A stretch of 64,000 nt of DNA from an uncultured Oscillospiraceae bacterium (GTDB lineage Bacteria > Bacillota > Clostridia > Oscillospirales > Acutalibacteraceae): contig CASDTR010000029.1 in assembly GCA_949283785.1 (NCBI GenBank), positions 20,401-84,400 of the forward strand, read 5' to 3'. Positions 13,977-63,936 of this stretch are shown here, piece by piece. The translations under genes were made by a program, and so were the position numbers. Every line of letters begins with the position of its first letter. Position 1 is the first letter of the stretch. The notes beneath the pieces were generated by a model. The model saw only the letters and a program-made list of their open reading frames with translations, was not told the origin of the DNA and did not search any database.

Positions 13977-14006
13977 ATAATATTAAAGACAAAACAGACA
14001 AAAGCC

Positions 14007-14213
14007 GTGGCTGTCGGAAAACCGAAATTCAGCACTTACACCCGTCTCCCTTGTGTAAAGGGAGACGTCACGGCGTAAGACGTGACAGAGGGATTGTATT
14101 CAAAAAAACTTGATGCTGCGCTGTTTTCTGCGCCGCATTGGGTTTCCTCTGGTTACGCAAAACAGCAACTCAAAAACTGTTTAAATATTAAAAATAAATT
14201 TATCGACAAGCTG
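14007..14213 (+). repeat. Dispersed palindromic repeat element, copy A (short form, 207 bp)
   Basis: Begins GTGGCTGTCGG and ends TTTATCGACAAGCTG, imperfect terminal inverted repeats. Inside are the family hallmarks: AACCGAAATTCAGCAC, a hairpin GTCTCCCTT/AAGGGAGAC (from 14044), a second hairpin GTCACG/CGTGAC, AGAGGGATTG, and a tail with GATGCTGCGCTGTTTT. It fills most of the gap between the lipoprotein gene and fucO and encodes no convincing protein. Three more copies lie at 31917, 45261 and 63698. Confidence 0.9.
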
Positions 14214-14215
14214 AG

Positions 14216-14245
14216 CCGTAAAGGGTAATCCCTTTACGGTTTTTT
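14216..14245 (+). terminator. Intrinsic terminator just 3' of repeat copy A
   Basis: CCGTAAAGGG (14216-14225), loop TAAT, CCCTTTACGG (14230-14239), then TTTTTT. It is the likely end of the MMPL-lipoprotein transcript, displaced from the stop codon by the repeat insertion. Confidence 0.9.
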
Positions 14246-31889: not shown

Positions 31890-31916
31890 AATCAGCGATT
31901 TTTTAAATCGCTGATT
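31890..31916 (-). repeat. Left bracketing hairpin of repeat copy B
   Basis: AATCAGCGATT / AATCGCTGATT with loop TTTTA. On the minus strand it is followed by a T-run (TTTTTAC), so it can act as a terminator for leftward transcription. It is repeated with one mismatch at 32219-32245, on the other side of repeat copy B. Confidence 0.85.
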
Positions 31917-32218
31917 GAGGCTGTCGAAAAACCGAAATTCAGCACACACCCCTGTCTCCCTTGTGTAAAGGGAGATGTCACGGCGTAAGACGTGACAGAG
32001 GGATTGGCAGGCTGAGCCTGCACCCAATTCGCGTACTCGGTGACGGTAAAAACAACTATAAGTAAGTGCCCGCGAGACAGCTTCATATTGACTGAGGTAT
32101 TGCATCGAAAAAGGCCGGATGCTGCGCTGTTTTATGTGCTGTATCGTTTTTCCTCTGATCGTGCCAAACGGCAGCTCTAAAACCGTTTAAGCATAAAAAC
32201 AACTTTATCGACAAGCTG
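31917..32218 (+). repeat. Dispersed palindromic repeat element, copy B (long form, 302 bp)
   Basis: Begins GAGGCTGTCGAAAAACCG and ends TTTATCGACAAGCTG (imperfect terminal inverted repeats). Contains the family core with the GTCTCCC.../...GGGAGA and GTCACG/CGTGAC hairpins, AGAGGGATTG, then a module absent from the short copies that starts with hairpin GCAGGCTGAGCCTGC and includes CGCGAGACAGCTT. It continues with GATGCTGCGCTGTTTT and the common tail. It lies between feoA and the GH36 gene; the remaining bases of this 589-nt gap hold the feoA upstream region and the two hairpins. Confidence 0.92.
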
Positions 32219-32245
32219 AATCAGCGATTTTTTAAACCGCTGATT
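32219..32245. repeat. Right bracketing hairpin of repeat copy B
   Basis: Same 27 nt as 31890-31916 except one T-to-C change, in direct orientation. Taken together they look like a long target-site duplication around the 302-bp repeat. Confidence 0.85.
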
Positions 32246-45101: not shown

Positions 45102-45217
45102 ATTTCAAAACTCCTTTCCGCCGAAGGACAGTGTTTTCCTTTTTCATTTTACTTTTTTACGGCGGAAAAAGCAAACGTAAAGAAATATTCCCGCATTAAA
45201 TTTGTAAAAGCAAAAAG

Positions 45218-45259
45218 ATGCCCCGCTCCGAAGCTGATGAAAGCATCGGGACGGGGCAT
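45218..45259. repeat. Left bracketing hairpin of repeat copy C
   Basis: A 42-nt stem-loop, ATGCCCCG...CGGGGCAT, followed on the minus strand by CTTTTTG (a terminator for leftward transcription). It is repeated at 45564-45605 with 40 of 42 bases identical. Confidence 0.88.
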
Positions 45260-45260
45260 A

Positions 45261-45562
45261 AGGCTTGCCGGTAAAGTGATTTTACTGTTAATATCGATGC
45301 CGTAAAAATTTATAAGGCAATAAAGCAAAGCATAAACTAACGTATTCAGTGTATGAATTGGTTGCAGCGTCACGCTGTCAATCCGTGATATCAAAAAGAA
45401 GCTGTCTCGCGGGCGGGTATAGTTAATTTTTACTGCGGTTTGGTACGAGTCTTGGGTGCAGGCTCAGCCTGCCAATCCCTCTGTCAAGGCTCACGCCTTG
45501 ACATCTCCCTTTACACAAGGGAGACAGGGGTGAGAGCTGAATTTAAGTTTTTTGAAAGTCTC
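45261..45562 (-). repeat. Dispersed palindromic repeat element, copy C (long form, 302 bp)
   Basis: Read on the minus strand it begins GAGACTTTCAAAAAAC and ends ACCGGCAAGCC, with AAATTCAGC, the GTCTCCC/GGGAGA hairpin, a second hairpin GTCAAGGC/GCCTTGAC, AGAGGGATTG and the long-form module (GCAGGCTGAGCCTGC, CGCGAGACAGCTT). It is the most diverged copy. The second hairpin has changed on both arms relative to the other copies, keeping the pairing. It lies between the SDR and fucA genes and explains this 532-nt gap together with the two hairpins. Confidence 0.9.
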
Positions 45563-45563
45563 A

Positions 45564-45605
45564 ATGCCCCGCACCGAAGCTGATGAAAGCTTCGGGACGG
45601 GGCAT
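45564..45605. repeat. Right bracketing hairpin of repeat copy C, likely fuc operon terminator
   Basis: Direct repeat of 45218-45259 with two substitutions, immediately beyond repeat copy C. It stands 29 nt after the fucA stop (reading leftward) and is likely the original end of the fuc operon, now followed by the repeat and the second hairpin. Confidence 0.85.
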
Positions 45606-63671: not shown

Positions 63672-63705
63672 TGAAGGCTCCGATTTTTCGGAGCCTTCAG
63701 TTTTG
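63672..63705 (+). terminator. Left bracketing hairpin of repeat copy D; nhaC terminator
   Basis: TGAAGGCTCCGA (63672-63683), loop TTTT, TCGGAGCCTTCA (63688-63699), then GTTTTG. The central 23 nt (63675-63697) recur exactly at 63908-63930 on the other side of the repeat. Confidence 0.9.
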
Positions 63706-63905
63706 TCAATAAAGTTATTTTTATGCTTAAACAGTTTTTGAGTTGCTGTTTTGCACGGTTAAAGGGAACTCGATGCGGCGCAGAAAACAGCGCATTGTCA
63801 AGAGTTCTCCGTGTACAATCCCTCTGTCACGTCTTACGCCGTGACATCTCCAATTACACAAGGGAGACAGGGGTGTGTGCTGAATTTCGGTTTTTCGACA
63901 GCCTC
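63698..63905 (-). repeat. Dispersed palindromic repeat element, copy D (short form, 208 bp)
   Basis: On the minus strand it begins GAGGCTGTCGAAAAACCG and ends TTTATTGACAAAACTG. It has AAATTCAGCAC, GTCTCCCTTGTGTAA, GTCACG/CGTGAC, AGAGGGATTG and the short-form middle (GCGCTGTTTTCTGCGCC). It shares the short layout of copy A (no GCAGGCTGAGCCTGC module). In this copy the first hairpin has lost some pairing (AATTGGAGA). Confidence 0.92.
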
Positions 63906-63907
63906 TG

Positions 63908-63936
63908 AGGCTCCGATTTTTCGGAGCCTTGTTTTT
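63908..63936 (+). terminator. Right bracketing hairpin of repeat copy D
   Basis: The exact 23-nt stem-loop of the left side (AGGCTCCGA, loop, TCGGAGCCT) followed by TGTTTTTG. It is a second functional-looking terminator. The last 60 bases of the window hold no further gene that I can support. Confidence 0.88.

Follow-up and report, generated by a model that had tools for sequence, protein, structure and literature searches.

We propose that a short non-coding element repeated in this genome is, very probably, a MITE with terminal inverted repeats (TIRs) of the IS1182 family, moved in trans by a DDE transposase of the IS1182 type and joined to its target at the feet of a palindrome. Mobilization by an IS1182 transposase is the reading of this MITE that the data best support. 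In most scored copies a whole hairpin is duplicated around the element, most empty sites in a related species carry a single hairpin, and the duplication is about as long as the hairpin. The element also has its ends and its behavior in common with autonomous IS1182 elements, and it is located behind genes.

Four copies are present in the window, i.e., the whole 64-kb stretch of DNA that was analyzed. Copy B (31917–32218, plus strand) is a long form of 302 bp with the ends GAGGCTGTCGAAAA and TTATCGACAAGCTG, and lies between a left target-duplication hairpin of 27 nt (31890–31916) and a right one (32219–32245) that is identical to it at 26 of 27 positions. Copy C (about 45261–45562, minus strand) is a long form with a second type of 3′ half; its hairpins on the low-coordinate side (45218–45259, 42 nt) and the high-coordinate side (45564–45605) agree at 40 of 42 positions. 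Copy D (63698–63905, minus strand) is a short form of 208 bp, with a hairpin of 23 nt on its low-coordinate flank (63675–63697) and a second, fully identical one (23 of 23) at 63908–63930. Copy A (14007–14213, plus strand) is a short form of 207 bp followed on the right by a single terminator hairpin (14214–14241), while its left flank holds a short remnant, AGCCGT (14003–14008), which equals the start of the right hairpin. Because of this match, copy A is read as an insertion whose left hairpin was probably deleted later. The TIRs of the element are imperfect (GAGACTGTCGAAAAACT versus CAGCTTGTCGATAAAGT, 12 of 17 bases). An earlier note on this DNA had reported four related elements, near-identical flanks at each of the loci B, C, and D, imperfect inverted repeats at the element ends and a copy A beside a terminator on one side only, and each of these points was borne out. 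The ORF list of the window contains no ORF of at least 80 amino acids inside any of the four copies; a single ORF of 81 amino acids (45149–45394) overlaps copy C.

The window's own genome (G000) is a 2.4-Mb draft of 71 contigs that is 97% complete. With copy B as query, 66 matching pieces were retrieved from it, and a search with a left-end pattern added places beyond these matches. Altogether, the element occurs at about 46 places (45 chained by hand, one of which is probably a chance match, and two later additions); the place that looks like a chance match, C69:71520, was rejected as a copy. Both ends were placed at 34 of the 45 places, and one of these proved spurious (C15:13642, left out of the flank table because a single short stretch accounted for both end matches), leaving 33 scored copies. 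The 11 of 45 places lacking a recognizable end fall outside the flank scoring. The 33 two-ended copies are mostly 200–300 bp long (range 171–465 bp); an element of a few hundred base pairs, in many copies and with no transposase gene inside, has the format of a MITE. Two copies elsewhere in the genome (C25:7865 and C19:18286) and the one at 45261–45562 in the window combine the common 5′ half and similar last bases with a different 3′ half, and the second internal palindrome exists in three palindromic versions among the copies. Copy B also matches 12 of 39 relatives, many of them over the palindromic core (about positions 37–90 of copy B) alone.

To score the flanks, the left flank of each copy was aligned to its own right flank, with 1056 mismatched left/right pairs as control. 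The own-flank alignment score averaged 20.7 over the 33 copies, versus 7.9 for the mismatched pairs (sd 1.7, maximum 16); 24 of the 33 copies lay above the 99.9th percentile of this control, and 23 lay even above its maximum. The nine copies below this percentile comprise four with scores of 14–15 (C69:85159, C65:13755, C26:68330, and C12:67238) and five with scores of 7–12 (copy A, C1:57150, C40:30632, C1:51950, and C1:68880). With a duplication called at a flank score of at least 14, a flanking direct repeat of 18–42 nt (mean 26.9) is present in 28 of the 33 two-ended copies. The length of this repeat correlates with that of the palindrome (r = 0.92 on the left and 0.89 on the right, 28 copies), and in 27 of the 28 it comes within 3 nt of the hairpin length on one side or both. 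Since repeat length tracks palindrome length, the flanking repeat is generally the hairpin itself. In a few of the 28 copies (C65:13755, C26:68330), only one side has a clear hairpin.

A convincing duplication is absent in five of the 33 scored copies. Besides copy A, these include C1:57150 and C40:30632, where a clear left hairpin is absent, and C1:51950, where the hairpins have diverged. The fifth, C1:68880, forms a longer composite together with C1:69359, the outer hairpins of which resemble each other by eye. At two extra places outside the scoring, also judged by eye, similar hairpins flank both sides (C27:16047) or the flanking hairpins are alike only in part (C21:38697).

Empty sites were examined in a congener (G001), which is another species of the genus and not another strain. 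Five blocks of about 20 kb with 12 copies were compared, and nine of the 12 sites were informative; the uninformative ones are those of copy A (upstream synteny absent), copy C (G001 has other genes there), and C1:57150 (synteny breaks). Exactly one scored hairpin stands at seven of the nine empty sites (copies B and D, C1:43600, C1:53529, C1:16149, C1:30602, and C12:27515). The clearest case is C1:53529, where G001 has a single hairpin with exactly the sequence of the duplicated one, and where the alignments of the two flanks share an overlap of 24 bases. At the other single-hairpin sites the G001 hairpin has diverged from that in G000, in line with the distance between the species. At copy D only one side has a syntenic match, as the window ends there, and C1:30602 is a 5′-truncated copy in G000 with a hairpin on one side only. 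The empty site of C1:51772 has no hairpin above the threshold, with an imperfect one visible by eye, and that of C1:23786 has two hairpins which differ from each other. The earlier note had held that the element recognizes terminator hairpins and duplicates them on insertion, and had named as contrary outcomes that most other copies lack duplicated flanks or that empty sites already carry two hairpins. Neither is what we found: 28 of 33 two-ended copies have the duplication, and the nine informative empty sites carry one hairpin in seven cases, none above the threshold in one and two differing ones in one, so that its claim is supported on both counts. G001 also has a copy of its own, at C4:92936, which by eye lies between two near-identical hairpins.

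The gene context of 28 copies was derived with a crude ORF caller, which called an ORF across two of them, and yields as raw counts 18 convergent, 8 tandem, 0 divergent, and 2 uncalled positions. Of the 28 copies, 21 have a T-rich stretch after the right hairpin and 23 an A-rich one before the left hairpin (raw counts). Judged from these sequence features, the flanking hairpins are taken as putative terminators, often acting in both directions.

The ends of the MITE are shared with autonomous insertion sequences (ISs). At its left end, 16 of 17 bases agree with those at the left ends of two ISs, L147 and L148, whereas among 200,000 background 17-mers from the same loci, IS ends included, two scored 16 and ten scored 14. 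The right end gives 14 matches to L166, L168, L177, and L178 when shifts of up to 3 are allowed. L147 is the same locus as L079, the transposase of which scores above the cut-off of the IS1182 transposase profile NF033551; L148 is 93% identical to L147, and both have DDE_Tnp_1_6 and DUF772 domains (three IS proteins were examined). IS1182 elements from the order and beyond carry ends such as CAGACTGTCGAAAAACT, which match the MITE left end at 16 of 17 bases; the TIRs of the MITE are thus like those of an autonomous IS1182 element.

To compare targets, we surveyed 87 IS1182 loci, consisting of the best 80 of 485 relatives and seven others (L075–L078, L080, L082, and L083), with L147 standing for L079; L081 and L084–L104 lie outside the survey and L121 outside the comparison. 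Since several of these loci come from the same genomes, they are to be read as separate insertions rather than as different species; among the 85 loci with placed ends, there is no pair in which both flanks are the same. A candidate end pair was found in 85 of the 87 loci and family-like ends in 67. A hairpin-length duplication of 16–40 nt (mean 26.9) is present in 48 of these 67, and in 40 of the 48 its length differs from that of the longer palindrome by no more than 2 nt. Of the 67 loci, 52 reached a palindrome score of 8 or more on one or the other side, versus 2.3% of 1500 random places at which one side was tested. Because the choice of ends in this first survey was partly weighted by the repeat, the survey was redone with ends picked from the inverted repeats alone. 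This repeat-blind version gave CAG..TGT ends in 48 of the 87 loci and a duplication in 33 of those 48, versus 1 of 2115 mismatched flank pairs in its control. The loci lacking a duplication (19 of 67 in the first survey, 15 of 48 in the repeat-blind one) have in some cases two different hairpins and in some none, and some are probable false ends. In target and duplication, the MITE behaves as autonomous elements with similar ends do: similar TIRs, hairpins at gene ends and hairpin-length duplications are common to both, whereas the MITE lacks a transposase gene and carries its own short interior.

A MITE usually, though not necessarily, has an autonomous partner within its genome; none was found in this draft of 71 contigs. 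A search of G000 with the NF033551 profile gave no match at E ≤ 0.001, the control having matched in 6 of 14 genomes, and the L079 transposase as query gave none at E ≤ 10 in a search run without a positive control. Two congeners likewise had no NF033551 match at E ≤ 0.001. Among 148 relatives, NF033551 matched in 33, seven of which exceeded the cut-off.

In transposition by a DDE enzyme, the two 3′ ends of the element are joined to opposite strands of the target, and the stretch between these joins is what ends up duplicated; normally, this target duplication is short and has a fixed length, which the geometry of the transposase dictates. In the mechanism that we propose, the MITE would insert into the palindrome of an intrinsic terminator, with one strand transfer at each foot of this palindrome, in the simplest case at the 5′ feet of an extruded cruciform. 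Because the join distance becomes the duplication and would here equal the hairpin, the duplication would span the whole hairpin: repair of the stagger would copy it to both sides. Each outer side would keep a hairpin with its T-tract, by which termination towards both neighbors would survive, and this preserved termination may let copies accumulate. We infer that the transposase acts in trans and attacks a cruciform and, from the anatomy of the insertions, that termination is preserved.

The form of the target DNA is the point at which another reading comes closest. With the same MITE and the same transposase family, the target might be a hairpin in single-stranded DNA, as could form on the lagging strand or in the wake of RNA polymerase, or a palindrome in B-form to which a dimer binds. 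We regard this as possible but somewhat doubtful. The sequence data fix the join positions at the palindrome feet and not the form of the DNA, yet opposite-strand joins 16–42 nt apart at variable spacing would be hard to make on straight B-form DNA, whereas a cruciform would allow joining at both feet whatever the stem length. A mode of insertion like that of IS1272/TnSha1, in which part of the target stem-loop is replaced and no duplication is left, would involve the same IS family and the same kind of target (PMC4923244, PMC5678879). It is nevertheless most improbable here, given that hairpin-length duplications flank 28 of the 33 MITE copies and 48 of the 67 IS loci: such stem-loop replacement is contradicted for most scored copies, in which a deletion with no duplication was not what we observed.

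We give hardly any credence to an origin with no transposition at all, in which the paired hairpins would stem from separate events of duplication or recombination that took place around a structural RNA or a terminator element. The core palindromes do match 12 of 39 relatives, many of them over the core only, and parts of the element may thus have other origins. However, the copies occupy many unrelated loci, with similar ends and locus-specific repeats, empty sites exist, and autonomous IS1182 elements resemble the copies in their ends and are flanked in the same way. A group IIC intron, a type of element with a habit of lying behind terminators, was also considered and rejected; no intron RNA was found, an Rfam search of the 64-kb window at the gathering threshold returning 0 matches.

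Long direct repeats are reportedly listed for the IS1182 family in ISfinder. In the case of ISCbo5, a member of this family, all insertion sites but one are hairpins, located at gene ends (PMC3098183), and the passages on ISCbo5 in that paper do not state a duplication length. IS1272/TnSha1, which shares with the MITE the IS1182 family and the hairpin targets, inserts into terminator hairpins with a deletion and no duplication (PMC4923244); its hairpin targets are used irrespective of sequence, and several of them are confirmed terminators (PMC4923244, PMC5678879). All or part of the stem-loop is lost on insertion of IS1272, whereas around the MITE it is duplicated. The 2017 paper on IS1272 does describe, as a possibility termed "pathway b", that a whole stem-loop would be duplicated if a cruciform were attacked at its 5′ feet (PMC5678879), and many of the elements analyzed here agree with that pathway. 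For ISCaa15, an IS1182-family element from Amoebophilus, direct repeats of 4 bp are tabulated (PMC3196728). Since ISCaa15 has 4-bp repeats and IS1272 none, hairpin-length duplication is not a trait of the whole family. Similar to RUP, BOX, SPRITE, and other bacterial MITEs, the element is short and non-coding, has TIRs and is present in many intergenic copies (PMC10969869); IS1182 is absent from the main text of that review, and its passages on bacterial MITEs do not mention hairpin-length duplication. In a literature search covering sources other than subscription papers and ISfinder, we found neither an IS1182-type MITE with hairpin-length duplications nor a report of duplication length tracking hairpin length. 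Within this search, the suggestion of the earlier note that the behavior is undescribed holds for such a MITE, but goes too far otherwise: terminator targeting by IS1182 members is in print (PMC4923244, PMC3098183), and duplication of the whole stem-loop had already been drawn as a possible pathway (PMC5678879).

With reasonable but far from full confidence, we extend the proposal to a clade of IS1182 transposases that occurs in many Firmicutes, and to its MITEs. These would choose their targets by secondary structure and join at the feet of an extruded terminator palindrome, with a duplication that equals the hairpin and has no fixed length, each insertion rebuilding a complete terminator on both sides. 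If true, this would be a structure-measured and phenotypically silent form of transposition. A duplication of 16–42 nt follows the hairpin and therefore points to an enzyme that reads DNA shape, and the MITE and IS1182 data together provide evidence from nature for a pathway that the IS1272 work had drawn as no more than a possibility. Because a terminator would remain on both sides, each insertion would come at little cost, which would explain how dozens of copies have been reached. Recognition of DNA secondary structure in living cells would also become testable by a simple assay.

Some further observations concern the flanks and the arrangement of individual copies. Three of 26 MITE hairpin pairs (C69:85159, C69:4909, and C12:67238) and two of 45 IS1182 pairs (L147 and L155) match better when one hairpin is reverse-complemented, i.e., with the loop flipped. 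Such flipped hairpins are unexplained by simple gap repair and may stem from later events. One contig of G000 (C55) stops two bases past the left end of a MITE copy, which is likely an assembly break at a repeat. In G001, two MITE-like copies lie in tandem with a small hairpin between them (L069, G001:C22). At the IS1182 loci L159 and L162 (AP018533.1), one copy has as its right hairpin the same sequence that another copy of that genome has as its left hairpin, suggesting that recombination between copies may have exchanged their flanks.
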